A stretch of DNA of 64,000 nt, taken from the NCBI GenBank assembly GCA_009833045.1, contig WUUP01000007.1, forward strand, positions 18,382-82,381, given 5' to 3'. The translations under genes were made by a program, and so were the position numbers. Of the stretch, positions 42,853 to 57,913 are shown piece by piece. The notes beneath the pieces are model-generated. The model did no database searches. It was not told where the DNA came from and saw only the letters and a program-made list of their open reading frames with translations. How positions within the stretch are numbered: the stretch's first letter is position 1; every line of letters starts with the position of its first letter. Origin of the DNA: Saprospirales bacterium GYS_P2D. GTDB taxonomy: Bacteria > Bacteroidota > Bacteroidia > Chitinophagales > Saprospiraceae.

Positions 42853-43911
42853 TTATTGAGGGATGGCATCCAACTGATCTATGGATAGGATCTTGATCAG
42901 TGTGCCATCAACCTCGATGAGACCATCAGATTTAAATTCTGAGAGCATTCTGATCAGTGTTTCTTTAGCCGTACCAGCTATGGCGGCGAGGTCATCTCGT
43001 ACGACCTTGATCTCTACATTTTCACTCTGACCAGAGCATTGCTTGTCGGCCATGGTGATGAGTGCATTTGCTACTTTCTTTCGTACTGAGCTATAGGCCA
43101 GCTCGATGAGTTTTTGCTCTGCATTTTCGGCCCGATTAGCCAGCATTTTTATGAATTGGGCACCAAAATCACGATTATTAAACAATAGTAAAGAGAAATC
43201 TTCTTTAGGTATCAATCGTATCTCACAGTCTGATATCGCCTTAGCAAAATCAGAATAACGAGTCTCCTGTATTAATGGAAAATATCCAAAAAATTCGCCT
43301 TCAGAATATAAGTTAGTAATCAATTCCTTCCCAAATTCATTAATATGATAGCATTTGACCTGTCCTGTCACTAAAAAATATAGCCATCTTGCATTTTGGC
43401 CTTCTTCATATATGAAGTCCTTTGCCTGGTACTTTCGCACTTCTCGGTTTTCGCTAAGCTTTTGGAATTCTTCATGTGCCTTCGCTTCATTGATAAAGCG
43501 ATGAAGCCCCTCATCACTCTGATCAAAAGCAGACTTGATCTTAGCACTCCGCTGTAGACGCATCTCTATGGCCTCGAGCAGCTCTGTATCGTCAAAAGGC
43601 TTAGTGATGTAGTCATCAGCACCAAGTCCCATACCTTTTCTGAAGTCTGTTTTTTCAGCTTTGGCAGTCAAAAATATAAACGGTATGCCATTGGTCTTTG
43701 GATTTTTATTGAGGATCTTGAGCACTCCAAATCCATCAAGCTCTGGCATCATCACGTCACAGATGATGAGATCAGGGTCGCCCGTCGTAGCTGCTTTGAC
43801 ACCCTCTACTCCATTAGGGGCAGAGATGATATCATAGCCACTGAGCTCCAGTATCTCGCAGAGATTTTCTCGGACCTCATAGTTGTCCTCTATGACCAGT
43901 ATTTTCTTCAT
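42853..43911 (-). CDS. Receiver-CRP/FNR fusion response regulator
   Basis: 352 residues with an unusual output. Residues 1-120 are a complete receiver domain (acidic pair Glu8/Asp9, phosphate-accepting Asp52 in ICDVMMPELDG, Lys in ITKPFD). Residues about 150-270 are a cyclic-nucleotide-binding-type sensor fold (FIYEEGQNARWLYFLVTGQVK). Residues about 280-345 are a Crp-type helix-turn-helix (DDLAAIAGTAKETLIRMLSEF). The recognition helix keeps the Glu and Arg that contact TGA/TCA half-sites in CRP and FNR. No Cys cluster of the FNR type is seen, so oxygen sensing must come from the partner kinase. The gene starts six bases after the kinase gene ends. Confidence 0.94.
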   Translation of the reverse strand: MKKILVIEDNYEVRENLCEILELSGYDIISAPNGVEGVKAATTGDPDLIICDVMMPELDGFGVLKILNKNPKTNGIPFIFLTAKAEKTDFRKGMGLGADDYITKPFDDTELLEAIEMRLQRSAKIKSAFDQSDEGLHRFINEAKAHEEFQKLSENREVRKYQAKDFIYEEGQNARWLYFLVTGQVKCYHINEFGKELITNLYSEGEFFGYFPLIQETRYSDFAKAISDCEIRLIPKEDFSLLLFNNRDFGAQFIKMLANRAENAEQKLIELAYSSVRKKVANALITMADKQCSGQSENVEIKVVRDDLAAIAGTAKETLIRMLSEFKSDGLIEVDGTLIKILSIDQLDAIPQ

Positions 43912-43917
43912 TTGTGA

Positions 43918-45189
43918 TTATTTCTTTGGTATTATTATCTTAAATGTGCTACCTGCCCCTTCTTCACTTTCAAAATCGATCGAGCCTCCTAACAGCTCTA
44001 TATATTCCTTGACAATATTGAGCCCGAGCCCCGTCCCTTGGATAGTCTCTACATTACTTGCCCTAAAGAATCTATTAAATAAGTGCTTTTGCTCAGCCTC
44101 TGGGATACCGATCCCTTCATCTTTGACATCTATTTTGATTGATTCTTCACTCACCTCCGATCGACAGGTGATGGTACTATTCTCCCCAGAATACTTGATG
44201 CCATTAGATACTAAGTTGAATAGGACATTTTTTAAAATTCGCTCATCACTATTGACTATTGGCTCACCCGTATGCTCATGGCATATAGTCTGTCCAGGCT
44301 TGAGTAGCCCTTGCACCTCATCATGGATGAGCTGACAGAGATCCGTCAGATTGATCGGACTGAGACCCACCTCTACCTTGCCCTCTTCGAGCTTGGACAG
44401 CGACAAGAAATCATTGAGTATACCAGTAAGATTAGCCACGGCAGATTTGATCCGGCCGATATGTTTTTCTCGTTTTGGGTGCTGTTCTTCGGTAGTGTAT
44501 CGGCCGATCAGCTGTGCCGACGACAGGATAGTACTCAGCGGCGTCCGAAACTCATGAGAAGCCATCGAAACGAATCTCGATTTAAGCTCATTCAGCTCCT
44601 TCTCCTTGTCAAGCGATTCTTGCAGTTTTAGTTCGTTCTCCTTCAGCTGCTGATTCGTACTTAGTAGTCGATTGACCACTTCTTCGAGTTCATTAGTGCG
44701 CTCCTCGACGAGATTTTCGAGCTTTTCATTGACACGGATGAGCTCTTCTTCTGCTTGTTTGACTTCCGTCAAATCATGTATCACACCAGTGAATATCACT
44801 CGATCATTCAGTATGACCTCACTCACCGCCAGTCTAAATGGGAATATACTCCCATCTTTTCTTTTAGCTGTCACCTCTCGTCCTATACCAATGATCCGAG
44901 CCTCCTTAGTATCGTGATATCGCTGTAGATATCCATCATGCTCACTATGATAGGGCTCTGGCATGAGCACACTTACATTTTGGCCCATGACCTCGTCGAT
45001 ATGATAGCCAAACATCTCAAGAGCCGCAGGATTCATCATCTCGATATGCCCTCGAGCATCGATGCTGATGATACCATCTATTGCAGTCTCTATAATCGCC
45101 TGCAGGCGCTGCGTAAAGTCAGAATCAATAGCTCCCAATACACGGTGTTTTTTTAGTGACCAAAGGCCAAAATAATAGAAATGTGACAA
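43918..45189 (-). CDS. FixL-like PAS sensor histidine kinase, probable haem oxygen sensor
   Basis: 423 residues, no membrane helix. PAS domain at about 27-145, coiled coil to about 200, HisKA with SHEFRTP near 213, and HATPase to the end (GIKYSG, DEGIGIP, GTGLGLNIV). The PAS domain closely follows FixL: EPYHSEHDGYLQRY...IIGIGREVTAKRKDGSIFP. His84, Arg90 and Arg104 match haem ligand His200, Arg206 and Arg220 of Bradyrhizobium FixL with the same spacing (6 and 20 residues). It is the upstream gene of the receiver-CRP regulator. The start is uncertain: codon 1 is TTG, and another TTG at codon 18 would leave the PAS domain complete and place a CRP-like palindrome in the promoter. Confidence 0.92.
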   Translation of the reverse strand: MSHFYYFGLWSLKKHRVLGAIDSDFTQRLQAIIETAIDGIISIDARGHIEMMNPAALEMFGYHIDEVMGQNVSVLMPEPYHSEHDGYLQRYHDTKEARIIGIGREVTAKRKDGSIFPFRLAVSEVILNDRVIFTGVIHDLTEVKQAEEELIRVNEKLENLVEERTNELEEVVNRLLSTNQQLKENELKLQESLDKEKELNELKSRFVSMASHEFRTPLSTILSSAQLIGRYTTEEQHPKREKHIGRIKSAVANLTGILNDFLSLSKLEEGKVEVGLSPINLTDLCQLIHDEVQGLLKPGQTICHEHTGEPIVNSDERILKNVLFNLVSNGIKYSGENSTITCRSEVSEESIKIDVKDEGIGIPEAEQKHLFNRFFRASNVETIQGTGLGLNIVKEYIELLGGSIDFESEEGAGSTFKIIIPKK

Positions 45190-45197
45190 AGCTCACT
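45182..45197. promoter_or_regulatory. CRP-like palindrome at the kinase start
   Basis: TGTGA-N6-TCACT, nine of ten positions of the classical TGTGA-N6-TCACA CRP box. It overlaps the first possible start codon (TTG) of the histidine kinase and lies about 70-85 bases before the divergent CBS gene. It could be an autoregulatory site for the receiver-CRP regulator if the kinase starts further downstream. Confidence 0.4.
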
Positions 45198-45205
45198 GAG
45201 CCACA

Positions 45206-45217
45206 TGATATATATCA
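45206..45217. promoter_or_regulatory. FNR/FixK-like box between the kinase and CBS/USP operons
   Basis: TGAT-ATAT-ATCA, a perfect 12-base palindrome with the core of the FNR consensus TTGAT-N4-ATCAA. It lies in the divergent promoter region, centred 56 bases before the CBS gene ATG at 45268. The receiver-CRP regulator encoded next door is the natural candidate to bind it. Confidence 0.55.
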
Positions 45218-45267: not shown

Positions 45268-45708
45268 ATGAACCTATTAGCACCTATAACAACGATCATG
45301 ACCAAAGATGTCCTCACACTGGAGGCCACAGCAGGTCTGGACAAAGTAGAAAAGATCTTTCAAAACAATAACATACATCATCTCCCGATCACCGAAGGTG
45401 AAAAAATGGTGGGGATGATCAGTAAAACTGACTTTTTGCTCTTTAAAAGAGGATTCTTTGACTTTCAGGTAGAGGCGAAGTATGATCTATTTAGGCTCAA
45501 GACGCATAAGGCATCTGATATCATGACTCGTGGTATCGCCAAACTCGAACCCACTGATAAGATCAATGTCGCTCTGGAAGTATTCAAAAAAAATATCCTC
45601 CATGCACTGCCTGTAGTAGATGGCGACCAGCTCATAGGCATCGTCACTACTCATGATATAATCACACATCTGGCTGACGATAAATCAGCTATTAATCAAT
45701 ATCAGTAA
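45268..45708 (+). CDS. CBS-domain pair protein
   Basis: 146 residues made of two CBS motifs (about 8-60 and 78-140): IMTKDVLTLEA, IHHLPITEGEKMVGMISKTDFL, then IMTRGIAKLEPT and LHALPVVDGDQLIGIVTTHDII. CBS pairs bind adenine nucleotides and act as energy sensors. First gene of a six-gene plus-strand operon; the next gene begins one base after its stop. It is divergent from the FixL-like kinase and has an FNR-like box upstream. Confidence 0.92.
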   Translation: MNLLAPITTIMTKDVLTLEATAGLDKVEKIFQNNNIHHLPITEGEKMVGMISKTDFLLFKRGFFDFQVEAKYDLFRLKTHKASDIMTRGIAKLEPTDKINVALEVFKKNILHALPVVDGDQLIGIVTTHDIITHLADDKSAINQYQ

Positions 45709-45709
45709 G

Positions 45710-46855
45710 ATGATAAAAGTAAAACTATATGGTCAGCCCACATCGACCTACGAATATGCCAAAAGCAAACTCGTAGAAGCTCTCAAAGACGCTGGTGTCG
45801 AAGTGGACCTCATCGAAATCAATGATGTCAATGCTTTCATCCAAGAAGGGATCAAGTCTGTACCATCAATCCGAGTGAATGGATCACTCGAGATGAATTA
45901 TGACAAGAGTCAGGACATCAATGCATTCGTCGATGAGACTATCAAAAACATAATGAAAGAAATAAACTTCAGTCATATGGACCATATAGTCGTACCTACT
46001 GACTTTAGCGCCAGCTCTGAGAATGCCCTCCGATATGCTAAGCACTTAGCACATCACAAAGGGATGCTTCTGAGATTAGTACATGCTTATCATCCCGTGT
46101 CTGCAGACTTGGATGGAGTGAGTGTAGTCGACCCCCATCTCGAAAGTATCAAGAGAAAACAACTCAAAAAGCTCTGCCTATCTGTACAAAGTGTAGAAGA
46201 TACAGAGATCACAGTCCCATTTATGGATGAGGAGTTCAGAGTAGGATTCGCTACAGAGGAGATCATCACGATCTCTAAAGAGCCCAATACTGAGCTCATC
46301 GTGATCGGTAGTACGGGCAGAGGCACGACGATGAAAAAATGGTTTGGCTCTGTGTCTCTGGAAGTGATGAAAAAAGCAAAAGCCCCAGTGCTGGTCGTTC
46401 CTCCAAAGGCGACGTTCGTCGCACCACAAAAAGTACTATATGCCTCTGACAATCCAATCCTCGATGCATTATCATTTGAGAAGCTGTCAGAGTTTTTAGC
46501 CCCATTTGATATATCTCTGCATATCGTACATGTGGGCGATCAAGACGAAGTCTATAAGACTGAAGTCATGAATCTGGCTAAATCATATTTCAGCGACAGC
46601 GAGATCAGCTACACTGAGATGCCAAAGGATGATATCTGTGCAGTCCTCGAGGCCTATGCCAAAACACACGAAATAGATCTCGTCGTCATGTCAAAGAAGA
46701 AAAAGAACTTCGTAGATGGGCTCATCCATCCGAGTGCGACTAAACAGATGGCGATACATACAGATGTGCCACTATTAGTCTATCACGAAGCGGATAAAAT
46801 CTGCAAATGTGGTGGCGCCTGCAAGAAAATAAAGAAAGCTGACCATAAGTGTTAG
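45710..46855 (+). CDS. Glutaredoxin-like / double universal stress protein fusion with Cys-rich tail
   Basis: 381 residues. Residues 1-80 have a thioredoxin/glutaredoxin-like fold pattern (VKLYGQPTSTYEYAKSKL, VDLIEIND, SVPSIRVNG with the cis-Pro), but the CxxC site is replaced by QPTSTY, so it should not be redox active. Residues about 92-232 are a universal stress protein domain with an intact ATP-binding motif (GSTGRG...FGSVS). Residues about 238-360 are a second USP-like domain lacking that motif. The tail holds Cys365, Cys367, Cys371 and Cys381, a possible metal-binding site. Second gene of the CBS/USP operon. Confidence 0.88.
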   Translation: MIKVKLYGQPTSTYEYAKSKLVEALKDAGVEVDLIEINDVNAFIQEGIKSVPSIRVNGSLEMNYDKSQDINAFVDETIKNIMKEINFSHMDHIVVPTDFSASSENALRYAKHLAHHKGMLLRLVHAYHPVSADLDGVSVVDPHLESIKRKQLKKLCLSVQSVEDTEITVPFMDEEFRVGFATEEIITISKEPNTELIVIGSTGRGTTMKKWFGSVSLEVMKKAKAPVLVVPPKATFVAPQKVLYASDNPILDALSFEKLSEFLAPFDISLHIVHVGDQDEVYKTEVMNLAKSYFSDSEISYTEMPKDDICAVLEAYAKTHEIDLVVMSKKKKNFVDGLIHPSATKQMAIHTDVPLLVYHEADKICKCGGACKKIKKADHKC

Positions 46856-46883: not shown

Positions 46884-47705
46884 ATGAAACGCTCTCTGAT
46901 CTCCATGGACTTCTCTGAGGTATCTGTCAATGCTCTGAGATATATCCTAAGTATGCACCATACAGGCGATCAGATAGACATCCTACATGTAGACGGTACC
47001 GTACTGTCCATGACTGAGTCTCCAGTATTGGTCAATCTCGAAGAGCAGCAGCATCAAGTCGCTGCACGCCTCGAGGCCTACATCAGAGAACATCTCCCAA
47101 TCGACACTCCTGATCACTATAATATCACGGTCAAAACTGGAGAAATCGTCAATACCATATGCCATCACGTAGCTCACCATAAGTATGACACGGTAGTACT
47201 AGGCACTCGTGACAAATGGAATCTCATCGATAAGATCATAGGAAATGTGGCGCTCGGGGTCGTCAAAAAATCATCCATCCCTGTACTCCTCATCCCTCAT
47301 CAGTCCAGCTATAATCCGATCGCCAAAGCATTAGTAGCCATAGATGAAAAAATGAAGGTGGCCGAAAATCTGGATAAGATCAAAAACTGGAATCTCGATA
47401 CTCGATCCGTACTCCATATGCTACACATAGCTGATGAAGACCAAACCGAAAAAGCATTTAATAAAACAAAGAGTGAGATCATTGCTTCTTTCTTCGAGCA
47501 AGAAGAAGTCCCTTTTTCATATCAGATAGATCGGATTATCTCGACTGATATAGCGACCAGTGTCCTAAGCTATGCTGATGAGATAGATGCAGAGCTCATC
47601 ATCACTCTACCGAGCTACCAGGACTTCATCACGTCCCTATTCGTATCAAGTGTATCTAAGGAATTGATACTCAAGACTAAGCGACCTATCCTATTCATCA
47701 AGTAA
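46884..47705 (+). CDS. Universal stress protein, two USP domains
   Basis: 273 residues in two USP halves. The first (1-145) begins RSLISMDFSEVSVNALRYIL and ends VVKKSSIPVLLIPH; its nucleotide loop GTRDKWNLIDKIIGNVA is a variant of GxxGxxxxxxxxxGS. The second half (about 150-273) begins AKALVAIDEKMKVAENLDKI and ends KELILKTKRPILFIK. USPs respond to energy starvation and hypoxia. It lies 28 bases after the glutaredoxin-USP fusion and about 70 bases before a CBS gene that has its own FNR-like box. Confidence 0.9.
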   Translation: MKRSLISMDFSEVSVNALRYILSMHHTGDQIDILHVDGTVLSMTESPVLVNLEEQQHQVAARLEAYIREHLPIDTPDHYNITVKTGEIVNTICHHVAHHKYDTVVLGTRDKWNLIDKIIGNVALGVVKKSSIPVLLIPHQSSYNPIAKALVAIDEKMKVAENLDKIKNWNLDTRSVLHMLHIADEDQTEKAFNKTKSEIIASFFEQEEVPFSYQIDRIISTDIATSVLSYADEIDAELIITLPSYQDFITSLFVSSVSKELILKTKRPILFIK

Positions 47706-47731: not shown

Positions 47732-47745
47732 TTGATCTGAATCAT
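47732..47745. promoter_or_regulatory. FNR-like box upstream of the second CBS gene
   Basis: TTGAT-CTGA-ATCAT, nine of ten positions of TTGAT-N4-ATCAA. If it acts from the usual activator position (centre at -41.5), transcription would start near 47780, after the first ATG at 47776. That favours translation from the in-frame ATG at 47833. Confidence 0.5.
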
Positions 47746-47775
47746 GAAAAAAATTGACAGCGATCAAGGCTATAA

Positions 47776-48282
47776 ATGATTAAGTATTCGATCTTTAGTA
47801 CAGATAGACAAATCATAAAAAGCACGACTCATATGGAACTGAACCTAAGTACTAACATCAAGGAAATCATGACGGAAAACTACACCTCGGTGACTCCTGG
47901 CACACTGATGAATGAGGTGGCGGCACTTTTTGCTAATCATGACTGGCACCATCTACCTGTCCTCGATATGAATCAGCGGGTAGTAGGTATGATCAGCTCA
48001 AAAGACTACTGCCAGCTCGAGCATCCACTGACTCGTCTCAATAAGGCTCGAGCCTCCAAACAAAACGAAAGACTCATGAGTAGTCTGACTGCAGAGGATA
48101 TCATGACTGCTGATCCTGTGACTATACATCACGAAGCATCACTGGCCAGTGCTATCGCTGTGTTTTTAGAAAATCAATTTCACATATTGCCCGTTATTAA
48201 AAATGATAAGTGCATCGGACTCATATCTCCGATGGACATACTACAATACATCCAAATGAATAATCTAATACCATCAGAATGA
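47776..48282 (+). CDS. CBS-domain pair protein
   Basis: 168 residues from the first ATG; the CBS pair occupies about residues 28-165 (IMTENYTSVTPGT, WHHLPVLDMNQRVVGMISSKDY, then IMTADPVTIHHEA and FHILPVIKNDKCIGLISPMDIL). The in-frame ATG at 47833 gives a 149-residue protein beginning directly before the first CBS motif and fits better with the FNR-like box at 47732. It overlaps the next CBS gene by four bases (ATGA). Confidence 0.88.
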   Translation: MIKYSIFSTDRQIIKSTTHMELNLSTNIKEIMTENYTSVTPGTLMNEVAALFANHDWHHLPVLDMNQRVVGMISSKDYCQLEHPLTRLNKARASKQNERLMSSLTAEDIMTADPVTIHHEASLASAIAVFLENQFHILPVIKNDKCIGLISPMDILQYIQMNNLIPSE

Positions 48283-48698
48283 GCAATATAGACCAAATCA
48301 CAATCAGCGACTCCTACTCTCCAGCACACCAGACTACTGATCAGACTACTCTCGATGTGATCTACGATACTATGAAAAATCACCTGATCAATCATGTGCT
48401 CGTAGTAGATCAAGAAGGGAAGCTCACAGGTATCATCTCCAAAGAAGATATCCTGCTAAAGATGATGTATCTATCTCAACATAGCTCTGGAGCCAGCTAC
48501 AATGAGAAAGTACTAAGTACTACTCCGGCCCAAGAGATCATGACCTCAGATGTCATCAGCATACATGTAGACTCTCCGATGAGCACGGCCGTCGAGACCA
48601 TCTGCAAATATAACCTCCAAGCCCTGCCAGTAGTGGATGATGGCGAAAAAGCCCTCGGCATCCTCTATGGTAACGGAGTCCTCAAAAAAATGATCTAA
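48279..48698 (+). CDS. CBS-domain pair protein
   Basis: 139 residues with two CBS motifs (about 5-65 and 80-139): HLINHVLVVDQEGKLTGIISKEDIL, then IMTSDVISIHVDSPMSTAVE and LQALPVVDDGEKALGILYGNG. The first CBS motif is more diverged at its start. Start overlaps the preceding CBS gene and its stop overlaps the start of the secreted protein gene, so all three are translationally coupled. Confidence 0.88.
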   Translation: MSNIDQITISDSYSPAHQTTDQTTLDVIYDTMKNHLINHVLVVDQEGKLTGIISKEDILLKMMYLSQHSSGASYNEKVLSTTPAQEIMTSDVISIHVDSPMSTAVETICKYNLQALPVVDDGEKALGILYGNGVLKKMI

Positions 48699-49414: not shown

Positions 49415-51502
49415 TTAAAGATTCTTAGCAATGGTGAAAGAGAAAGTACTGCCCTGGCCGACTTCTGATGCTACTTCGATCTGGCCAAAATGCTGCTCTA
49501 CGATCTTAGCACATATAGCGAGGCCCAATCCAGTACCTTCGTAGATATCTTTGCTATGTAGCTTCTCAAATATGCCAAAGATCTTCTCCAAATGTCGATC
49601 AGGTATTCCGATCCCATTATCCTTGATCTCAAATCTATGATGCCTGTCATTTTCTTTATGAGAAATGTGGACACAAGGTTGCTCTCCAGGCTTTACAAAT
49701 TTTAGTGCATTTCTGATCAGATTTTCAAAGAGCTGGATCATTTTAGTCTTATCAGCACTCATCACCGAATCATCAAATCCCTCCCACGTGATCTGTCCTG
49801 AGCAGCCCTCTATAGTATCAGTCAGATCTATGTTTATAGTAGCCCTGAGATCGGCGAGCTTGATCTCATCCAGTTTTATCTTTTGGGTATTCACCCTCGA
49901 GAAAGTCAATAAATCCTCGATGAGCGACATCATGTTGGTCGAGCTATTGATCACGATATCCAAAAACTCTTTATCCTTATCATCTAATAATTCATAGGAA
50001 GACTGCTTGATCAGCTGCGAGAAAGATAATACGGTACGCAATGGTGCTTTTAGATCATGCGAGGCTATGTACGCAAAGTTTTCAAGCTGCAGGTTGGACT
50101 CAATATATTTTTCGAGTTGGACCTGACGTTCTTTGAGAGCTACCAGCTGATCAGATATGATCTTTTTACGCTTTGACTCTTCGGTGATATCATCTAATAT
50201 TCGGACCAAGAAAGACTTGTCATCTACCTCTATATGCCTGAAGATCCCTCTGACCTTTATTTGATTGCCCCAGATGTCTTCTGAGTCAAACTCTAATAAC
50301 TTGATTCCATTTTCGATAAACTCTTTGAACTGTGAGCCCCATGTACTTTTATCTTGACCTAATATTTTAGAAGCTTCTTTTGCTAAGTCTTCTGTTTTGT
50401 ATTCTCGTATGGGACCAAAGACTTTCTCAGCACCACCATTCCTGAGGATGACATCCATTTTGACTACCCCGAGATGTGGTTCTATCTTGACCTCTGATAT
50501 ATCGATTCCTAAAAATGAATGATCTAATAGTGCCTCATATAGCGAGGTTCTTTCTTTGAGTATTTTTTCTTGTTTTACCTTTTCTCGAGCGTCAGAGATA
50601 TAGGTGATATACTCGTATTTATCTGTTTCTTGATTTTTAAACTTGTTGACATGTATTTCTAAAGGAAAGTTGCTACCATCCTCTCTTTTTGCAGCGAGTA
50701 GAGCATGGTATGTTCCACCATCTTTCAGGTTATTTGCTTGCTCTATCATATAGCCTTTGCTGTCAAAGTCAAAAGCATCAAAAGCGTGAGTCCCCACATC
50801 TACCCATGTATCAGACCCAAATATTTCTTTGACCTGCGGTGATACATATAGATGCGTGCCTTCTTCATCCACATGGCTGACACCACCAGGTAGTGTCTCG
50901 AGTATATTTCTGAGTAGCTCTTTTTGCTCTGTGATCTCCCGCTCTTTCAGCCTCTCCTCTGTGACGTCTCGATACTGACGTGTCATGATGAGCTGCCCAC
51001 TGATAGTACTCAGCTGAAGAGTAGTGACATAGTGTCTCTCGATATTATCCATGGTCACCCTCCTATCGGACTTATAGTAGCCTGAGGTCAGTAGTGCTTT
51101 TATCGCCTCATTAGTCAGTTTTCGAGACTCTTCTTCTGTAGAGTAGCTAAACCGAGCGCTCAGCTCTTCATGAGTCAAATAAAGCTTATCGTCGGGGAAT
51201 AGCTCTCTGAGTGCCATATTCCTAAAGATCAATCGATGGTCAGGGTCGTACGGATCTGATGAGGCTAATGCCACTACATCAAATCCATCTACAGAATCAT
51301 TCAGGAGATGCTGATATACCGAGTCTACTCTGTCTTTTACCTTATCTTGAAACTCATTTTCTTTGGCAACGACACGCACTATGACTCGCTGTAGTTTAGG
51401 ATCATTGATATCATAGCCCTCCTCCTGGAGGATATCGGTCAATGTACTTTCGGTCTCATATAAAAGGTGCAAACTAAGTGGATTTTCGTTTTCTAAAGTC
51501 AC
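49415..51502 (-). CDS. Multi-PAS sensor histidine kinase
   Basis: 695 residues, no membrane helix seen. An N-terminal helical region (1-70) is followed by PAS-like domains at about 75-190, 193-320 (GGVSHVDEEGTHLYVSPQVKEIFG ... REDGSNFPLEIHV) and 325-445. HisKA with ASHDLKAPLRT lies near 480-545 and HATPase to the end (NLIRNALKF, DNGIGIPDRHLEKIF, GTGLGLAI). The start codon is GTG; the next upstream in-frame stop is ten codons away with no ATG between. No response regulator is adjacent. It lies between the CBS/USP operon (convergent) and the cbb3 operon, but the terminator at 51610 separates it from the latter. Confidence 0.9.
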   Translation of the reverse strand: MTLENENPLSLHLLYETESTLTDILQEEGYDINDPKLQRVIVRVVAKENEFQDKVKDRVDSVYQHLLNDSVDGFDVVALASSDPYDPDHRLIFRNMALRELFPDDKLYLTHEELSARFSYSTEEESRKLTNEAIKALLTSGYYKSDRRVTMDNIERHYVTTLQLSTISGQLIMTRQYRDVTEERLKEREITEQKELLRNILETLPGGVSHVDEEGTHLYVSPQVKEIFGSDTWVDVGTHAFDAFDFDSKGYMIEQANNLKDGGTYHALLAAKREDGSNFPLEIHVNKFKNQETDKYEYITYISDAREKVKQEKILKERTSLYEALLDHSFLGIDISEVKIEPHLGVVKMDVILRNGGAEKVFGPIREYKTEDLAKEASKILGQDKSTWGSQFKEFIENGIKLLEFDSEDIWGNQIKVRGIFRHIEVDDKSFLVRILDDITEESKRKKIISDQLVALKERQVQLEKYIESNLQLENFAYIASHDLKAPLRTVLSFSQLIKQSSYELLDDKDKEFLDIVINSSTNMMSLIEDLLTFSRVNTQKIKLDEIKLADLRATINIDLTDTIEGCSGQITWEGFDDSVMSADKTKMIQLFENLIRNALKFVKPGEQPCVHISHKENDRHHRFEIKDNGIGIPDRHLEKIFGIFEKLHSKDIYEGTGLGLAICAKIVEQHFGQIEVASEVGQGSTFSFTIAKNL

Positions 51503-51636: not shown

Positions 51637-51761
51637 CACTAACAAAATAAATAGTCTATTTGTGAAACTAACTAACTAACAAATGATAGTACTAATTTAA
51701 AAATCAGCACGCTCATCTATAGTGACCAGGATCACCCTATACCCTGATACTCATCATGGTA

Positions 51762-52460
51762 TCAATGGCATCGTACTGGCTGCGCCAAGAGTGAATAAAA
51801 GTCTAACTCCTGGGGCATATCAACCACCCAGCCACGGTATATCAGATATACACCCAGACAGAGCTGCATCACTGGGAGCAGCCGCTGTAGTCGCAATGAT
51901 CTGATCGAGAAAAGCTCTCTACCAAAAATCACCACCCCCAGCATCGCAGGTATGGTACCCATGCCAAAAGCGGTCATGAACAAAGCTCCATTCCAAACAC
52001 CTCCGCTGGTCATCGCACCGAGTAGCGCCAGATAAACTAAGCCACAGGGCAAGAGTCCATTCACGGCGCCGAGTACTACTGTCGGTAGATGCTTCATGCG
52101 CCCGATGAATCTGCTAAACCATGATGTGTAGCTCCCTAAGCTCTGACGATACCAGCCAAATCGGCTCAATAATGTCTCAATATCAATAGTCATCAAAAAG
52201 AGTATGATCAAAAATACTCCTGAGACGATTGATAGTGACTTCTGCAGACCTGACAGCATGGCCGTCTGTCCGATCAGCCCAAAGACCACCCCCAGCAATC
52301 CATAGGTCACTACTCGACCCATATTGTAGGAGAGCATGTGTCCGATCATGGACCATCGACCTCCTGGATGAAGCCTACTGACTCCCATCGCCAAGGGACC
52401 ACACATGCCGACGCAGTGTAGACTCCCAAAAAAGCCGATCGTCAATGCTAAATAAATCAT
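51762..52460 (-). CDS. Sulfite exporter TauE/SafE-like membrane protein of the cbb3 cluster
   Basis: 232 residues with about six membrane helices. The N-terminal GFFGSLHCVGMCGPLAMG, with Cys16 and Cys20, and the later VNGLLPCGLVYLAL are typical of the COG2836 branch, which is repeatedly found beside cbb3 oxidase assembly genes and has been linked to copper or cytochrome biogenesis. Its start overlaps the ccoH stop by four bases. A true sulfite exporter role is unlikely in this context; a role in oxidase maturation is inferred. Confidence 0.88.
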   Translation of the reverse strand: MIYLALTIGFFGSLHCVGMCGPLAMGVSRLHPGGRWSMIGHMLSYNMGRVVTYGLLGVVFGLIGQTAMLSGLQKSLSIVSGVFLIILFLMTIDIETLLSRFGWYRQSLGSYTSWFSRFIGRMKHLPTVVLGAVNGLLPCGLVYLALLGAMTSGGVWNGALFMTAFGMGTIPAMLGVVIFGRELFSIRSLRLQRLLPVMQLCLGVYLIYRGWVVDMPQELDFYSLLAQPVRCH

Positions 52461-52906
52461 GACTGTACCATATAGACATCGTCCTCGTAGTAATACTCTC
52501 TCGTGTCATCGTGCCACGTGATCTGTATACTCCACTTACCTTCTCGGAGCTGCTTGACAGGTATGGATAGACGACTCCCCTCTGTCAAGGAGAATGACTC
52601 CGATTGGTCTACGGACTTCTCCATAGCTCTATATAGCGTTATATCTCCAGATATATTCCCTTCCTTTTTGAAGTCTATTTCTACCGATTTTTGATTTTCA
52701 TCAAAGTCGATCGACACGCCAGGATAGTGCTTCATCCGATTACGCTGCTGATCGTAGTGACTTTGATACTTGATATCCTGAGCATAGTAGTCCTCTGTGA
52801 CGAGACTATGATCGACCGTACGACTTTTGAATACTACAAAAATCAGTGTCCCGATATAGCATACAAAAAAGAGTGCTATTGCTTTTCCCCAATGAAAATT
52901 CTTCAT
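52457..52906 (-). CDS. ccoH: CcoH/FixH family cbb3 oxidase assembly protein
   Basis: 149 residues with one N-terminal membrane helix (GKAIALFFVCYIGTLIFVVF) and a beta-rich periplasmic domain. YYAQDIKYQSHYDQQRNR and WSIQITWHDD match the FixH family, which is needed to assemble active cbb3 oxidase. It lies eight bases after ccoG and overlaps the safE-like gene. Confidence 0.92.
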   Translation of the reverse strand: MKNFHWGKAIALFFVCYIGTLIFVVFKSRTVDHSLVTEDYYAQDIKYQSHYDQQRNRMKHYPGVSIDFDENQKSVEIDFKKEGNISGDITLYRAMEKSVDQSESFSLTEGSRLSIPVKQLREGKWSIQITWHDDTREYYYEDDVYMVQS

Positions 52907-52914
52907 GATTATGG

Positions 52915-54345
52915 TTATTTTACTGGTCCTAAGAAATTAGTGTCGACATCATCGACTTTCTCACCTGTCTCTGTAGAGATCACCTCCACCTTGAGTTCTG
53001 TTTTTCGTCCATCCAGATCCTCTGCTTTTATCTTGATGAATACAGCGCCTTCTATGATATCATTCTCTGCAGTCACTGGTGGTGTACCTACCCACTGTAC
53101 TACTGCATCGATATTAGTGACTCGGAGCTCTATTGGATATTTCTCCTTAGTCTTATTGATCAGTTGATAGTTGTACAGATTACTGATATATCCGTCCTCC
53201 TGCTCTTGGTAGAGCATACCTGGTGTACGGAGGAGGAGAGTCTCCACCTCAGATCGACTCCAAAACAGGAATGTCTCTAATCCTATCAGTACTGCCAGTA
53301 CTCCACAGTATGCTAATGCTCGAGTGGTGAATATCGTACTCTTATTCTCCTTGATCCCTTCGTAGCTATCCAGACGGATGAGACCTGTCGGCTTATCGAT
53401 CTTAGTCATCACCTCATCACAGGCGTCCATGCAGGCCGTACAGTTGACACACTCGAGCTGTATACCATTACGGATATCGATGCCTGTCGGACAAACATGG
53501 ACACACAGCTTGCAGTCGATACAGTCACCTTTAGGCTGCTCATCAACAGGAGCATTCTTCTTCATACGACCTCTCGGCTCACCTCTGATCCAGTCATAAT
53601 AGACAGCCAAAGACTGCTTATCCAATAGTACTCCCTGCAGACGACCATATGGACAAATGGTAGTACATACCTGCTCTCTCAGCGATGCGAATACGAAATA
53701 GAACACCAAGGAGAAAATGATCATCGCCATGAATCCCTGCCAGTGCTCATTAATAGGCTCAGAGATGATCTTGAGCACCTCGTCGATCCCTATGATATAG
53801 GCTAAGAATGTATTGGCGATAAGCACAGCTATCCCAAAGAAAATAGCCTGCTTAGATACTTTCTTGATGATCTTGTCACGAGTCCAGGGAGCTTTCGCTA
53901 ATCTGCGCTGAGCACCTGCATCTCCCTCGATCCAGTACTCAATGCGCCGATAGACCATCTCCATGAATATCGTCTGCGGACATATCCATCCACAGAATAA
54001 TCGCCCAAAAATCACGGTGAAGACAACGATGATCAACATCATGATCAGCATCCCGATCACAAACAGGTGAAAATCCTGCGGTGCAAAGTGAATACCGAAT
54101 AATATAAATCGCCTCTCCAGCACATTGAGCAATACTAATGGCTCGCCTCCGACCTTAATCCATGGCAATCCAAAGAGCACTGCTAATAGCAAATAGGACA
54201 AGAGCTTCCTCTTGTTATAAAACTTACCTTTTGGCATTTTGGGGAAGATCCATATACGCTTCCCCGATGCATCTACAGTCGCTAAAGAATCACGATAGGC
54301 CGCTTCTTCTGCTCCTTCTTCAAATACATATTCAACCTGACTCAT
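52915..54345 (-). CDS. ccoG: CcoG family iron-sulfur membrane protein, cbb3 oxidase accessory
   Basis: 476 residues. Five or six membrane helices, with GRLFCGWICPQTIFMEMVYR near 115-135, a second Cys pair in EQVCTTICPYGRLQGV, and two 4Fe-4S ferredoxin motifs (CIDCKLCVHVCP and CVNCTACMDAC). The C-terminal periplasmic part is beta-rich. CcoG is known to take part in cbb3 biogenesis, in some bacteria as a cupric reductase. It follows ccoP after 59 bases. Confidence 0.95.
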   Translation of the reverse strand: MSQVEYVFEEGAEEAAYRDSLATVDASGKRIWIFPKMPKGKFYNKRKLLSYLLLAVLFGLPWIKVGGEPLVLLNVLERRFILFGIHFAPQDFHLFVIGMLIMMLIIVVFTVIFGRLFCGWICPQTIFMEMVYRRIEYWIEGDAGAQRRLAKAPWTRDKIIKKVSKQAIFFGIAVLIANTFLAYIIGIDEVLKIISEPINEHWQGFMAMIIFSLVFYFVFASLREQVCTTICPYGRLQGVLLDKQSLAVYYDWIRGEPRGRMKKNAPVDEQPKGDCIDCKLCVHVCPTGIDIRNGIQLECVNCTACMDACDEVMTKIDKPTGLIRLDSYEGIKENKSTIFTTRALAYCGVLAVLIGLETFLFWSRSEVETLLLRTPGMLYQEQEDGYISNLYNYQLINKTKEKYPIELRVTNIDAVVQWVGTPPVTAENDIIEGAVFIKIKAEDLDGRKTELKVEVISTETGEKVDDVDTNFLGPVK

Positions 54346-54404
54346 TTTTATAATATTCAGTATTCACAAACAGTATAATAGTTAGCGCTGTAGATATAGT
54401 TAGT

Positions 54405-55331
54405 TTATGACTCTTGGTCAGCGGACTCAGCCGCTGCCTCATCTTCTTCAGGTACCCAGATGGTACCTTCTGCTTTCTTCTGATTAGGAGGATCAGTACC
54501 TTCTAATGTGAGTATGTAGGACGCCACTTTTTGCATATCAAATGGCCCCATCTGTGCTTTCCAGGCGATCATACCTTTCTCCGGCACACCGTACTTGATC
54601 GTCTTGAATACATTTTTGATGCCTCCACCATGTATCCAGTATTCGTCAGTCATATTAGGACCGATGAGTCCCTCTCCTTGAAATCCATGACACGCAGCAC
54701 AGTTAGCATTGAATATATCCTTACCAGCTGCGATATCGGCCTCTGCCATGAGAGCTTCTACGTTATTCTCATTGACTTTGTTAGCCATTTTTTCGAGATA
54801 GATGGACTGTGCCTCTTCTGCTACCTCCATCTCTGCTTCATACTCAGCGGCAGATGACCACTCTGAGCCTGACCAGTGATAATTGTAGAGATATATGAAG
54901 GCAAATATGATAGAGCCATACATGATGCCCAGCCACCAGGGTGGTAGGCGGTTGTCCAGCTCACGGATGCCATCATAGTCGTGTCCGAGATCTATGCTAT
55001 CCTCTTTTCCTACAGGTATGAGTGCTACACTCCAGTCATAGACTTTCTTCCACATCGGAGTGGTCTCGATCAGCTCTGGATGCTCGATAGCCTCTATACC
55101 ATGCTCTCGGAGGGCCTGTATTTTCTGAGACTCGAGGATCATCATATTGATCTTAAATAACGCAAATATCACTGCCAAAATGACTAAGATCCCAGAGACT
55201 AAGACAATGTTTTCTAATAGCCACACCATCGCTCCAGATCCCTCTGATCCGGCCGCATCCTGTCCATAGAGCATCGCCCCTATATGCGTGATTAGGAGGA
55301 TTAGTATCGTTTTACTTTTGATCGTTTTCAT
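54405..55331 (-). CDS. ccoP: Cytochrome cbb3 oxidase subunit CcoP (monohaem)
   Basis: 308 residues: a hydrophobic N-terminal segment, a helix at about 35-62, the conserved LDNRLPPWWLGIMYGSIIFAF membrane segment near 128-150, and one cytochrome c domain with CAACH near residue 210 and an EKGMIAW methionine ligand. Proteobacterial CcoP usually has two haem c sites; only one is seen here, as is common in Bacteroidota. It passes electrons from a donor cytochrome to CcoO. It lies five bases after ccoQ. Confidence 0.94.
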   Translation of the reverse strand: MKTIKSKTILILLITHIGAMLYGQDAAGSEGSGAMVWLLENIVLVSGILVILAVIFALFKINMMILESQKIQALREHGIEAIEHPELIETTPMWKKVYDWSVALIPVGKEDSIDLGHDYDGIRELDNRLPPWWLGIMYGSIIFAFIYLYNYHWSGSEWSSAAEYEAEMEVAEEAQSIYLEKMANKVNENNVEALMAEADIAAGKDIFNANCAACHGFQGEGLIGPNMTDEYWIHGGGIKNVFKTIKYGVPEKGMIAWKAQMGPFDMQKVASYILTLEGTDPPNQKKAEGTIWVPEEDEAAAESADQES

Positions 55332-55336
55332 AACGC

Positions 55337-55516
55337 TTATTTTGTGCTACCTGCCTCATCCTCCTCGAGTGGGAGGTGAGACATTTTAGTGATAAAATCA
55401 TTGTTCTTCCTGAAGACGAGGATCGCACTGAGTATGAATACGGTCATGAACGTAATCAAAGCGAATAATGCCATCCAGTTGATGTTGCCCGCCTCGCTCA
55501 ATATATATTTGTACAT
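55337..55516 (-). CDS. ccoQ: CcoQ-like small subunit of cbb3 oxidase
   Basis: A 59-residue reading frame between ccoNO and ccoP, start ATG at 55516, stop TAA at 55337. It has one membrane helix (about 14-35, WMALFALITFMTVFILSAILVF), a basic turn (RKNN) and an acidic tail (LPLEEDEAG), the size and layout of CcoQ/FixQ. Spacing of 12 and 5 bases to its neighbours supports a real gene. CcoQ stabilises the oxidase complex. Confidence 0.85.
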   Translation of the reverse strand: MYKYILSEAGNINWMALFALITFMTVFILSAILVFRKNNDFITKMSHLPLEEDEAGSTK

Positions 55517-55528
55517 CTTCTTAGATTT

Positions 55529-57658
55529 TTATTGTTCTACCATTAGTTCTGGCTTGATATCCGTACCCAGACGCTGTAGGTAGGCGATCAATGCCACGAT
55601 TTCTTTATTCTCCAGATTTTCCTGATTGATGCCATCTGCTCTTAGGCTTGCTGCTACTTCTGCTGCTTGCTTTTGGAGGTCATCGACTGCATCATCTTCA
55701 TAACCTTCTGGATATGGTGTATTGAGCGTCTTGAGGACTTTGATCTTAGCCGCTGTATACTTAGTGCTGAGATCATCCTCGATCAGCCATGGATACGGAG
55801 GCATGATAGATCCTGGAGACATAGACTCTGGATCGAGCATATGATTGTAGTGCCAGCTATCCGGATACTTCTTGCCCAGTCTATGGAGATCTGGACCTGT
55901 ACGCTTAGATCCCCAGAGGAATGGTCTATCATAGACGAACTCTCCAGACTTACTATACTCTCCATATCTCTCTGTCTCTGATCTGAATGGTCGGACCATC
56001 TGACTGTGACAACTGATACATCCCTCTCTGATGTAGATATCTCTACCTTCGAGTTCGAGTGGTGTATATGGCTGTACAGATTCTATCTTAGGTACATTAT
56101 TATCGATGAGCATCATCGGGAATATCTCTACTAAGCCACCTATCAATATCACCACTGTAGATCCTATGAGCATCTGTACTGGTCTACGCTCGATCCATCT
56201 GTGCCAGTATTCACCTTTGTGAGCGACATACTTTTCACGAGCTGGAGCTTGAGTAGATTTATCCTCTACAGATCCAGACTTAGCAGTCTTATAGAGATTG
56301 ACCGCCATCATGATAGCACCTCCTACGTATAGCGCACCACCGAGAGCTCTCATCGCATACATCGGGATGATCTGCGTGACTGTCTCGAGGAAGTTACCAT
56401 AGCTCAAGAAGCCATCTGGCTCAAACTGCTTCCACATCATAGACTGCGTCCATCCTGCCCAATACAATGGGATACAGTAAAACATGATACCCAGCGTAGC
56501 GATCCAGAAGTGGACGTTAGCTTGCTTCACAGAGTGTAGCTTAGTATTGTACAGCTTAGGGAATAACCAGTAGAGCATACCGAAGGTCAACATACCATTC
56601 CATCCGAGTGTACCTACGTGTACGTGACCCACTGTCCAGTCAGTATAGTGACTGATCGCATTGATCGACTTGATGGATAGTAGCGGGCCCTCGAGAGTAG
56701 CCATGCCATATGCTGATACAGCTACTACCATAAATTTCAAAATAGGGTCATTTCTTACTCTATCCCATGCACCACGTAGTGTTAATAGACCATTGAGCAT
56801 ACCACCCCAAGATGGAGCGATCAGCATCAGTGAAAATACGGTACCCAGTGACTGCGCCCAGTCAGGGAGCGATGTATAGAGTAAGTGGTGAGGACCTGCC
56901 CAGATATAGATGAAGATCAGACCCCAGAAGTGGACGATCGACAGCTTGTAGGAGTATACCGGCCGCTTAGCAGCCTTTGGTAGGAAGTAGTACATCAAGC
57001 CCAGATACGGTGTGGTCAAGAAAAATGCTACCGCATTGTGCCCATACCACCACTGTACGAGTGCATCCTGTACCCCTGCAAATACGGGAATACTCTTCCA
57101 CATACTCACTGGTATCTCCAGATTATTGAATACATGCAGCACGGTGACGGTCACCCAGGTAGCTATGTAAAACCATATCGCTACATAGAGATGCTGCTCA
57201 CGACGCTTGAGGATCGTACCAAACATATTGATACCAAATACGATCCATACCAAGGCGATGGCGATATCTATAGGCCACTCGAGCTCTGCATACTCATGGC
57301 TACTGGTGATACCCAGTGGTAGCGTCAGCGCTGCGGCCAGTATGATCGCCTGCCAGCCCCAGAAGTGGACCTTGGATAGGACATCGCTAAACATGCGTGT
57401 CTTAAGTAATCGCTGTAGGGAGTAGTATACTCCGGTGAAAATACCATTGCCCACAAATGCGAAAATCGCTGCATTAGTATGCAGCGGTCTGATACGTCCG
57501 AATGTAGTCTCTGCCAGACCCAGATTAGCCGCTGGCCAGACCAGCTGAATCGCAGCTAATAAGCCGACAGTCATCCCGACGATACCCCATATCACAGTGA
57601 CAACCGCAAAATTCCTTACGATCTTGTCATCATAATGGAAAGTCTCAATCTTACTCAT
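55529..57658 (-). CDS. ccoNO: Fused cytochrome cbb3 oxidase subunits I and II (CcoN-CcoO)
   Basis: 709 residues. Residues 1-470 are CcoN with 12 helices and the haem/copper ligands: PLHTNAAIFAF, WWYGHNAVAFF, WAGPHHLLY and HYTDWTVGHVHVGTLGW. After a linker (about 475-505) comes CcoO: a membrane anchor (VQMLIGSTVVILIGGLVEIF), the haem c site GCISCHSQ near 547, RTGPDLHRLG, and a Met ligand in MPPYPWL. This is the catalytic core of a high-affinity terminal oxidase reducing oxygen to water. The N-O fusion is known in Bacteroidota. Second gene of the operon after ccoS. Confidence 0.96.
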   Translation of the reverse strand: MSKIETFHYDDKIVRNFAVVTVIWGIVGMTVGLLAAIQLVWPAANLGLAETTFGRIRPLHTNAAIFAFVGNGIFTGVYYSLQRLLKTRMFSDVLSKVHFWGWQAIILAAALTLPLGITSSHEYAELEWPIDIAIALVWIVFGINMFGTILKRREQHLYVAIWFYIATWVTVTVLHVFNNLEIPVSMWKSIPVFAGVQDALVQWWYGHNAVAFFLTTPYLGLMYYFLPKAAKRPVYSYKLSIVHFWGLIFIYIWAGPHHLLYTSLPDWAQSLGTVFSLMLIAPSWGGMLNGLLTLRGAWDRVRNDPILKFMVVAVSAYGMATLEGPLLSIKSINAISHYTDWTVGHVHVGTLGWNGMLTFGMLYWLFPKLYNTKLHSVKQANVHFWIATLGIMFYCIPLYWAGWTQSMMWKQFEPDGFLSYGNFLETVTQIIPMYAMRALGGALYVGGAIMMAVNLYKTAKSGSVEDKSTQAPAREKYVAHKGEYWHRWIERRPVQMLIGSTVVILIGGLVEIFPMMLIDNNVPKIESVQPYTPLELEGRDIYIREGCISCHSQMVRPFRSETERYGEYSKSGEFVYDRPFLWGSKRTGPDLHRLGKKYPDSWHYNHMLDPESMSPGSIMPPYPWLIEDDLSTKYTAAKIKVLKTLNTPYPEGYEDDAVDDLQKQAAEVAASLRADGINQENLENKEIVALIAYLQRLGTDIKPELMVEQ

Positions 57659-57666
57659 ATTAGAAT

Positions 57667-57840: not shown

Positions 57841-57913
57841 GCCGAATCATAGAATTTGGAAGCAAGGTAGAGATGAGCTCTTGCTATTCTGATGACCTAC
57901 ATCACAGTGGCTA

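Follow-up and report, generated by a model that had tools for sequence, protein, structure and literature searches.

Gene content of the locus

The window, that is, the whole 64,000-nucleotide stretch analysed here from Saprospirales bacterium GYS_P2D, carries a sensor histidine kinase gene followed by a response regulator gene on the minus strand, both lying where the first-pass annotation had placed them (Table 1). CBS-pair and universal stress protein (Usp) genes and a second PAS kinase gene belong to the same neighbourhood, and a cbb3 oxidase operon is found 7-13 kb from the pair. Elsewhere in this genome, outside the window, an oxygen-independent hemN gene stands beside a Cu-type P-ATPase gene. 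The start called for the first kinase falls within a candidate operator, so that translation may instead begin at the TTG at 45138.

Table 1. Features of the kinase/fusion locus and its surroundings (positions in the window)
Feature	Position	Strand	Remarks
Receiver-CRP/FNR fusion regulator	42853..43911	-	352 aa; 6 bp downstream of kinase
Crp-type HTH of regulator	42865..43077	-	Residues 279-349, with E317 and R321; Pfam HTH_Crp_2
CRP-type beta-barrel of regulator	43180..43437	-	Residues 159-244; Pfam cNMP_binding
Receiver domain of regulator	43564..43902	-	Residues 4-116, with D9, D52, K104; Pfam Response_reg
FixL-like PAS sensor histidine kinase (PAS-HisKA-HATPase)	43918..45189	-	423 aa from called TTG start 45189
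Predicted haem-pocket PAS domain of kinase	44764..45108	-	Residues 28-142; H84 (codon 44938-44940), R90, R104, L120, V122
Candidate tandem operator, one mismatch	45184..45217		TGACAAAGCTCA-N10-TGATATATATCA; between kinase and CBS gene
CBS-pair protein	45268..45708	+	Divergent from kinase; candidate target
Universal stress protein	45710..46855	+	Thioredoxin-like N-terminus (Thioredoxin_3 just below cut-off)
Universal stress protein	46884..47705	+	
Perfect candidate tandem operator	47733..47766		Before two CBS genes; 9 bp before called start 47776; next ATG 47833
Two CBS-pair proteins	47776..48698	+	Candidate targets
PAS histidine kinase	49415..51502	-	695 aa; possible target; Met at FixL His position
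Perfect candidate tandem operator	51723..51756		About 220 bp upstream of 695-aa kinase, just past end of cco operon
cbb3 oxidase operon	51762..57840	-	ccoS, ccoNO, ccoP, ccoG, FixH-like, SafE-like
SafE-like	51762-52460	-	Named by appearance only, without NCBIfam match
FixH-like	52457-52906	-	Named by appearance only, without NCBIfam match
ccoG	52915-54345	-	
ccoP	54405-55331	-	Score below its family cut-off
ccoNO	55529-57658	-	
ccoS	57667-57840	-	
Perfect candidate tandem operator	57893..57926		52 bp upstream of ccoS

The FixL-type PAS domain of the kinase

The kinase is composed of PAS, HisKA and HATPase_c domains, all above their Pfam cut-offs, with the PAS domain beginning close to the N-terminus. 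His84, Arg90 and Arg104 of this domain had been equated with His200, Arg206 and Arg220 of FixL in the first-pass annotation, which proposed a structure prediction aligned to FixL as a check, and both database matches and model bear the assignment out. Indeed, the top PDB matches are FixL chains (1d06 of Sinorhizobium meliloti, E 3.8e-31; 1dp6 of Bradyrhizobium japonicum, 1.9e-30), and the AlphaFold model of the domain (mean pLDDT 91.6) superposes on Bradyrhizobium FixL 1dp6 without a gap (Z 21.4, rmsd 0.8 Å over 115 residues, 45% identity). Residues 18..132 of the model align to 154..268 of FixL, so that H84, R90 and R104 of the kinase correspond to positions 200, 206 and 220. In the FixL point mutant 1y28, titled R220A, the mutant alanine aligns opposite R104, and that of the mutant 2cmn, titled 'a proximal arginine residue' and presumably R206A, opposite R90. 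After FixL, the next structural matches are 10jx, another haem PAS (Z 16.7), and E. coli DosP (Z at most 16.6).

The domain therefore combines the FixL PAS fold with the proximal His (H200 in FixL) and the distal Arg (R220) in register, Arg220 being the O2 contact in FixL. It is FixL-type in sequence and in predicted structure, and haem binding is the expected consequence. The protein is termed FixL-like rather than FixL because it scores 167.9 bits against the rhizobial FixL equivalog NF041777 of NCBIfam, for which 850 bits are needed. As a control, 29 PAS S-box matches of the same genome were considered, the three weakest fragments being left out, and none of the 25 other PAS domains compared, several of them partial matches, has a His at the H84 position.

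A receiver fused to a CRP/FNR module

The regulator had been read as an intact receiver (Asp52) joined to a CRP fold and a helix-turn-helix, and this architecture is recovered by Pfam, with Response_reg, cNMP_binding and HTH_Crp_2 each over its cut-off. In an alignment of 26 of the 42 full-length fusion sequences, the receiver residues D9, D52 and K104 never vary, nor do E317 and R321 of the HTH. The protein thus has the intact receiver of a two-component response regulator together with the CRP beta-barrel and Crp HTH of the Crp/Fnr superfamily. Given this receiver, it would be controlled by phosphorylation, unlike FixK. The top NCBIfam matches of the receiver are mostly OmpR/PhoB-type regulators, and no LuxR/FixJ-type HTH is found in the fusion, which displays HTH_Crp_2 and cNMP_binding instead. 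Stand-alone FNRs of the phylum possess a CxxC motif and two further Cys that are invariant (nine aligned); this cysteine cluster of Fe-S FNRs is absent from the fusion of the window, and none of the 26 aligned fusions has the barrel Cys.

The CRP part of the fusion groups with stand-alone FNRs from other genomes of the phylum. In the trees, these FNRs nest within the fusions with weak support, and the AU test does not reject one clade of fusions (p 0.41) on a tree built without four long fusion rows (L067, L069, L070, L071) and without L240, a protein of the same genome as the window whose very long branch was placed among the fusions in an earlier tree. The proposal that FixJ and FixK functions are collapsed into one protein is supported in part: as an idea about function it fits the cbb3 operon, hemN and the tandem boxes described below, whereas a literal FixJ-FixK fusion finds no support, because the receiver comes without a FixJ HTH and the CRP module groups with the stand-alone FNRs of the phylum.

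Distribution of the fusion and of its partner kinases

The fusion regulator is not peculiar to this genome. It was detected in at least 56 of 395 sampled genomes of Bacteroidota; the best five candidates per genome were scored in this survey and the best seven in the survey of FNRs, with full scoring in 18 genomes, so that absence of either protein from a given genome is provisional. In a scan of named genomes with receiver patterns, 11 of 80 rows are full-length fusions, and the other 69, partial and mostly receivers, were left uncounted. A PAS kinase adjoins the fusion on the same strand in 35 of 41 loci of relatives, the adjacency and co-conservation typical of a two-component pair, and both genes overlap by 4 bp in 10 loci.

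FixL-type PAS domains are found in 25 of these 35 partner kinases and another PAS class in the remaining 10. At least two sensor types thus partner the fusion, the FixL-type PAS being one of them, and the regulator is not tied to the FixL pocket. Among cultivated relatives, Arcticibacter svalbardensis and Sphingobacterium corticibacter have a FixL-type partner and Jiulongibacter sediminis one of the second class. H84 and R104 are kept in all 25 FixL-type partners and the I99, L120 and V122 positions with few exceptions, while only 15 have an Arg at the R90 position. In the second class, the equivalent of His84 is present in 10 of 10 but that of Arg104 in just 3, so that His84 alone is not specific. 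On a tree in which many forks are weak, the 21 fusion rows analysed imply at least four switches of PAS type. A ccoNO gene is present in the retrieved neighbourhood of 7 of the 41 loci, several of these stretches being truncated by contig ends. Of the 11 full-length loci from named genomes, 4 likewise include one (L076, L077, L080, L082).

No description of a receiver-CRP fusion or of a FixL-type system in Bacteroidota was found in the literature searched, which covered few subscription papers. The fusion may well figure in existing catalogues of domain architectures, two response-regulator censuses lying outside this search.

Tandem FNR/FixK-like boxes in the genome

FNR/FixK-like boxes of the form TGAY-N4-RTCA occur as pairs 22 bp apart. 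Six perfect tandem boxes are present in the 4.95 Mb of the genome, whereas the reversed motif, used as a control, gave none in the same 4.95 Mb, even with one mismatch allowed. Three of the six lie at ccoS, the CBS pair and hemN, and two adjoin haloperoxidase-like and LuxC-like genes, for which a low-O2 role is not obvious. The box before ccoS also precedes, by 33 bp, a gene of RidA-like appearance on the opposite strand. Among tandem boxes with one mismatch, seven of eight places have no evident link. At the DNA level, FNR-type boxes are therefore found where a FixK-type regulator would have them, at the cbb3 genes, hemN and its own operon, the tandem box of the latter carrying one mismatch. 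The plain FNR consensus TTGAT-N4-ATCAA was discarded for regulon calling as too loose, with 39 places in this genome, and the tandem form is thus needed. A two-mismatch FNR scan of the window is inflated by a repeat array at 143-2316.

Tandem boxes across relatives

In the loci of relatives, box density is 18.9 per 10 kb ahead of kinase, regulator, CBS, Usp and ccoNO genes and 2.25 elsewhere in these loci; with any other spacer from 0 to 10, it is 0.5-2.7. Against other intergenic DNA, the densities are 46.0 versus 14.4 per 10 kb. The distance within pairs is 22 bp in 38 cases and 23 bp in 7, every other spacing up to 80 bp being seen once at most. Scored by gene, a single box precedes only 17 of the 31 kinase genes, 4 of the 13 regulator genes and 1 of the 4 ccoNO genes, a count that leaves out ccoS, which can precede ccoNO; the figure for other genes is 49 of 244.

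Perfect tandem boxes are present in 27 of 37 genomes with the fusion only, 11 of 19 with the fusion and a stand-alone FNR, 9 of 46 with a stand-alone FNR only and 4 of 293 with neither. In these counts, a stand-alone FNR is a profile match that starts at position 16 or earlier with E no higher than about 1e-66, and the cysteines were read in nine of the genomes so counted. The co-occurrence of box and regulator gives a Fisher p of about 1e-27, but the species are related and such p-values do not count independent events. A fairer figure comes from the window's own family, where 22 of 26 fusion-bearing genomes have tandem boxes, against 2 of 10 of those that lack the fusion; across the remaining families of this order, box and fusion are only weakly associated (6 of 10 versus 4 of 13 genomes, p 0.22).

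The perfect tandem box is missing in 18 of the 56 fusion genomes, 14 belonging to one family (f24) and 4 to another (f22); in three of these f22 genomes (G179, G270, G317), the partner kinase is of the FixL type. The idea that a fusion had been missed in 13 fusion-negative genomes bearing boxes was rejected. Indeed, full candidate scoring, which covered these 13 and 5 others, gave receivers and stand-alone Crp proteins and no full-length fusion, and two receiver frames of fitting length in fusion-negative genomes are receiver-kinases. As the box also occurs in genomes with a stand-alone FNR only, it is no proof of a fusion regulator.

Proposed circuit and alternatives

To our knowledge, how aerobic Bacteroidota sense falling O2 is poorly worked out. 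The computed evidence, namely the domain make-up, the residues of the FixL pocket, the conservation of the gene pair, the enrichment and spacing of the boxes and their co-occurrence with the regulator, points to an O2-responsive two-component system that probably does the work of FixL, FixJ and FixK in two proteins. The PAS domain of the kinase would bind haem via His84, and O2 on the haem, held by Arg104, would switch the kinase off. With falling O2, the kinase would autophosphorylate and pass its phosphate to Asp52 of the fusion regulator which, through its receiver instead of FNR cysteines, would then bind TGAY-N4-RTCA pairs. The 22 bp period is about two helical turns, placing both boxes on the same face, and most likely two adjacent dimers would be bound. 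Activation is expected for its own operon, the CBS/Usp genes, the cbb3 oxidase, hemN and the neighbouring Cu-type P-ATPase. Such a scheme offers a concrete circuit with named residues for low-O2 sensing, a predicted regulon with the cbb3 oxidase at its core and a DNA signature that can be scanned for in any genome.

The sign of control might be reversed, the regulator being a repressor or the kinase mainly a phosphatase, with low O2 relieving repression. The sign does not follow from the position of the boxes, which lie near several called start codons, whereas the ccoS box, 52 bp upstream of its start, would suit a class II activator by the positioning rule for such proteins. In addition, FixK and FnrN activate cbb3 genes (PMC7888657) and both cco and hemN are FixK targets (PMC4999443), which makes the reversal unlikely.

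A little less likely again is a kinase answering NO, CO or the redox state in an otherwise unchanged circuit. The FixL haem also takes NO and CO (structures 1dp8, 1lsv) and FNR-like regulators serve NO responses (PMC1274295), but Arg104, aligned with FixL Arg220, is invariant in the FixL-type partner kinases, the gene company consists of a cbb3 oxidase and an oxygen-independent hemN, and no denitrification or NO reductase gene was recognised by eye among the ORFs of the window.

The tandem boxes could also belong to another Crp/Fnr protein, with the fusion controlling something else. This would agree with their occurrence in FNR-only genomes, and stand-alone FNR genes themselves adjoin boxes at three loci (L216, L218, L229). 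Against it, most fusion-only genomes carry tandem boxes, and the fusion is the only match of this genome to the FNR profile at E<=1e-40 among the best 7 of 11 candidates. With all candidates scored, three other Crp proteins of the genome exceed the HTH_Crp_2 cut-off, and their recognition helices, SRQTVTT or SREAVSR, differ from that of the fusion. Such a division of labour is judged improbable. Least likely, though by a narrow margin, is a PAS domain FixL-like in look that has lost its haem and takes flavin, redox or a partner protein as cue; the second partner-PAS class, with its His and mostly without Arg104, gives this some room, whereas the identity to FixL, the model fit across the whole domain and the conserved proximal and distal residues speak against it.

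Beyond the two-protein O2 switch preferred here, it is conceivable, though on the doubtful side, that the fusions form a separate class of low-O2 regulators in Bacteroidota, an FNR-lineage module in which a receiver replaces the cysteine sensor and which shares its operators with CxxC FNRs. Phosphorylated receivers would tetramerise two dimers on the 22-bp sites and yield a sharp switch over a dormancy-like regulon, comprising genes for Usp and CBS proteins, the cbb3 oxidase, haem synthesis, an anaerobic ribonucleotide reductase, Hsp20 and ribosome hibernation. One type of operator could then serve a direct O2 sensor, the CxxC FNR, as well as a haem kinase acting via phosphate, which would provide a natural comparison of one operator type under a direct FNR-type sensor and under a phosphorelay.

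Relation to known systems

The kinase resembles FixL of Bradyrhizobium japonicum and Sinorhizobium meliloti in the register of H200, R206 and R220, in its HisKA-HATPase part and in an expected off state with O2. It differs in that FixL is described as membrane-bound (PMC7888657) whereas the PAS domain of the window kinase stands near the N-terminus, and in that its partner is a receiver-CRP fusion and not FixJ. In the rhizobial FixLJ-FixK and hFixL-FxkR-FixK cascades (PMC7888657 and PMC4999443), cbb3, hemN and regulator genes carry TTGAT-N4-ATCAA boxes through which a CRP/FNR protein acts. The system proposed here has the same ingredients, namely a predicted haem kinase, a response regulator and a CRP/FNR output at cbb3 and hemN boxes. 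Unlike in those cascades, the steps from FixJ or FxkR to fixK would become one phosphorylated CRP/FNR protein, and the boxes are tandem with a 22 bp period.

FNR and FnrN share with the fusion the CRP fold, the kind of recognition helix (GTA-x-E-x2-IR) and, in some genomes, the same tandem boxes, whereas the fusion of the window lacks their N-terminal cysteine cluster and has a receiver instead, O2 sensing having presumably moved to the kinase. In Mycobacterium tuberculosis, DosS/DosT-DosR consists of a haem kinase and a regulator over Usp, CBS, small heat-shock, ribosome-hibernation and cation ATPase genes. The pair of the window likewise joins a predicted haem kinase to a response regulator with candidate targets of similar kinds; however, DosS and DosT carry GAF haem domains and DosR is a NarL-type regulator, and neither a GAF haem domain nor a NarL-type HTH is found in the window pair, which displays PAS and Crp HTH domains. 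E. coli DosP, the haem PAS protein met among the structural matches after FixL, is distinguished from the window kinase by its phosphodiesterase output and its Met distal ligand.

Gene pair and predicted haem-PAS sensor

The two adjacent genes of the first-pass annotation are borne out by the ORF positions, both on the minus strand, the regulator gene standing second after a gap of 6 bp. With every Pfam domain over its cut-off, the kinase displays a PAS-HisKA-HATPase architecture and the regulator a receiver, a CRP barrel and a Crp HTH. The nominal kinase start, TTG 45189, falls within a candidate operator and the kinases of the two closest relatives are called at 407-408 aa, so that TTG 45138 is the likelier start.

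The closest solved relatives of the kinase PAS domain are FixL structures (1d06, E 3.8e-31; 1dp6, E 1.9e-30), with DosP next (E ~1e-18). Structure prediction and comparison with FixL, proposed earlier as a check, gave a model with a pLDDT of 91.6 and FixL as its best match: B. japonicum FixL 1dp6 overlays gap-free over 115 residues at 0.8 A (Z 21.4), ahead of two further haem PAS proteins, 10jx (Z 16.7) and DosP (Z 16.6). In this overlay, H84, R90 and R104 (PAS numbering) correspond to FixL residues 200, 206 and 220 with a constant offset of 136, upholding the register claimed from residue spacing. As a control, the PAS matches of the own genome were aligned (29, the three weakest left out and several others partial), and none of the 25 others carries His at the H84 position.

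Table. Coordinates of the features
Feature	Position	Strand	Remark
Receiver-CRP/FNR fusion regulator	window 42853-43911	-	352 aa
FixL-like PAS kinase	window 43918-45189	-	nominal start
DNA repeat array	window 143-2316, 7557-8012		regular
Very large proteins	window 13394-35714		several; secreted-looking, by appearance only
NarL-like regulator	window 35848-36510		by appearance
Animal-type haem peroxidase-like protein	window 36709-38613		secreted, by appearance
Partner kinases with two successive FixL-type PAS	L033:7739-9415; L034:7733-9418		H84 and R104 equivalents in both PAS
Partner kinase in two frames	L040:10544-11846		broken gene or assembly error
Triple boxes, each 22 bp apart	L209:1501-1556; G053:C9:96410-96465		two overlapping tandem sites

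Spread of the fusion and its partner kinases

In a first sample of 60 genomes, own genome counted, 37 have a full-length fusion; the raw tally of 38 takes in one genome whose sole match is a stand-alone Crp protein. When the phylum was sampled evenly, 56 of 395 genomes had a full-length fusion. Eleven named full-length fusions include those of Crocinitomix, Jiulongibacter, Chitinophaga, Arcticibacter, Aquimarina and Sphingobacterium, and it is these named relatives that suggest a place in the Bacteroidota for the own genome. In 35 of 41 neighbourhoods, a related PAS kinase of the same orientation adjoins the fusion at a distance of at most 115 bp; it lies on the opposite strand in three, and no partner kinase was found within the fetched stretch in the other three.

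Among the 35 adjoining kinases, 25 are of the FixL type, with H84 and R104 invariant and the R90 position occupied by Arg (15), Asn (8), Glu (1) or Lys (1). The other ten (at loci L042, L046, L051, L052, L054, L056, L057, L060, L064 and L070) form a second PAS class with the wording ..H..HR..Y...P..RxMGxG..DL...FPVEISL, in which the His is kept in all ten and Arg104 in three. The partner type switches at least four times on the regulator tree, whose forks are weak, suggesting that sensors were swapped over time while the regulator was retained. Atypical partner kinases are listed in the table.

cbb3 oxidase genes and the candidate operator

The window also includes cco genes: ccoS, ccoNO and ccoG exceed their family cut-offs, ccoP falls below its own, and FixH-like and SafE-like genes, named without an NCBIfam match, come next. 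These cco genes lie ~7-13 kb from the kinase, with CBS and universal stress protein (Usp) genes in between; ccoNO occurs inside the fetched neighbourhood at 7 of 41 relatives' loci and 4 of 11 named loci.

When inverted repeats preceding the pair and neighbour genes were counted blind, ATGAT-N4-ATCAT ranked second behind a T-run, with ATGAC-N4-GTCAT and TTGAT-N4-ATCAA lower. The density of TGAY-N4-RTCA is 18.9 per 10 kb upstream of these genes versus 2.25 elsewhere in the same loci, and enrichment at this level is limited to the 4-base spacer. Compared with other intergenic DNA, the figures are 46.0 and 14.4 per 10 kb, the latter indicating that some further nearby promoters carry the box too. 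Single boxes stand upstream of kinases (17/31), regulators (4/13), ccoNO (1/4), the CBS classes (9/10 and 3/4) and the Usp classes (13/23 and 1/1), and of 49 of 244 other genes. Boxes are paired at 22 bp (38 pairs) or 23 bp (7 pairs), any other distance up to 80 bp being represented by at most one pair.

Six perfect tandem boxes (two boxes 22 bp apart, no mismatch) occur in the own genome: at the CBS pair, at ccoS-ccoNO, at hemN, which has a divergently oriented P-ATPase gene of the Cu type as its neighbour (ccoI-like, truncated and below family cut-offs), upstream of a 695-aa PAS kinase, and at haloperoxidase-like and LuxC-like genes. One mismatch is found at eight further places, including the kinase/CBS intergenic site, the other seven having no evident link; the reversed pattern gave no match over this genome. 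At 29 loci from other genomes, one per genome, the genes beside tandem boxes include those for Usp, ccoI-like, ccoNO, hemN, hemA, ferrochelatase, anaerobic ribonucleotide reductase, NiFe hydrogenase, Hsp20, S30AE and cation ATPases; on the other hand, methyltransferase, YceI, flavodoxin and DUF genes stand beside boxes too, as do some without a family match. Genes of baeRF_family3 (bacterial archaeo-eukaryotic release factor family 3) adjoin tandem boxes at loci L200, L204 and L205 (box at 1501), of three genomes, and could be a translation-related regulon member.

Regulator associated with the boxes

Across the 395 genomes, with the best five (fusion) or seven (FNR) candidates scored in each, perfect tandem boxes occur in 27/37 with the fusion alone, 11/19 with both fusion and stand-alone FNR, 9/46 with stand-alone FNR alone and 4/293 with neither; the backward pattern was seen in one sampled genome. 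The fusion genomes that lack a perfect tandem box, 18 in all, belong to families f24 (14) and f22 (4), three of the latter having FixL-type kinases. In the window's own family, boxes accompany 22 of 26 genomes with the fusion versus 2 of 10 without; of these two, one genome is 58% complete and the other is split into ~1040 contigs. Elsewhere in the order, 6/10 versus 4/13 is no significant difference.

A profile search of the own genome, the best 7 of 11 candidates scored, found no stand-alone FNR like those counted above, and the recognition helices of its other Crp proteins differ from that of the fusion. Nine stand-alone FNRs, drawn from re-scored fusion-negative genomes and from G203, a genome with a fusion as well, have four invariant cysteines in common, CxxC among them, and a recognition helix of the fusion's kind. 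Trees place the FNRs together with the fusions in a single group, separate from the own-genome Crp proteins L237 and L238 (support 100/100); judged from sequence, descent may have run in either direction.

Proposed mechanism

In rhizobia, FixJ is phosphorylated by FixL when O2 is low and goes on to induce fixK, whose product recognises TTGAT-N4-ATCAA and switches on fixNOQP (PMC7888657); bound O2 inactivates the kinase, and FixK targets include cco and hemN (PMC4999443). Here, input would most likely follow FixL logic and output FNR/FixK logic, a single protein linking both. The 22-bp phasing would set two dimers on the same helix face. Because some FNR-only genomes have the same phasing, it looks like a property of the DNA-binding lineage rather than of the receiver; the receivers might, as a guess, bridge the two dimers. 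The literature searched, most subscription papers being outside its reach, gave no description of the fusion or of a FixL-type circuit in Bacteroidota. Every part is of a known kind; the novelty lies in how they are wired and in the tandem operator.

Other features of the window

The very large proteins have, by appearance only, dockerin-like segments and a common wording at the C-terminus that resembles type IX secretion signals, and the NarL-like gene adjoins the haem peroxidase-like one. In the repeat array, pattern matches stand 360 bp, or a multiple of it, apart; its plus-strand ORF has a repeated PFQLYG..SFSQIV peptide, and the array is perhaps a long repetitive minus-strand protein running past the window edge.
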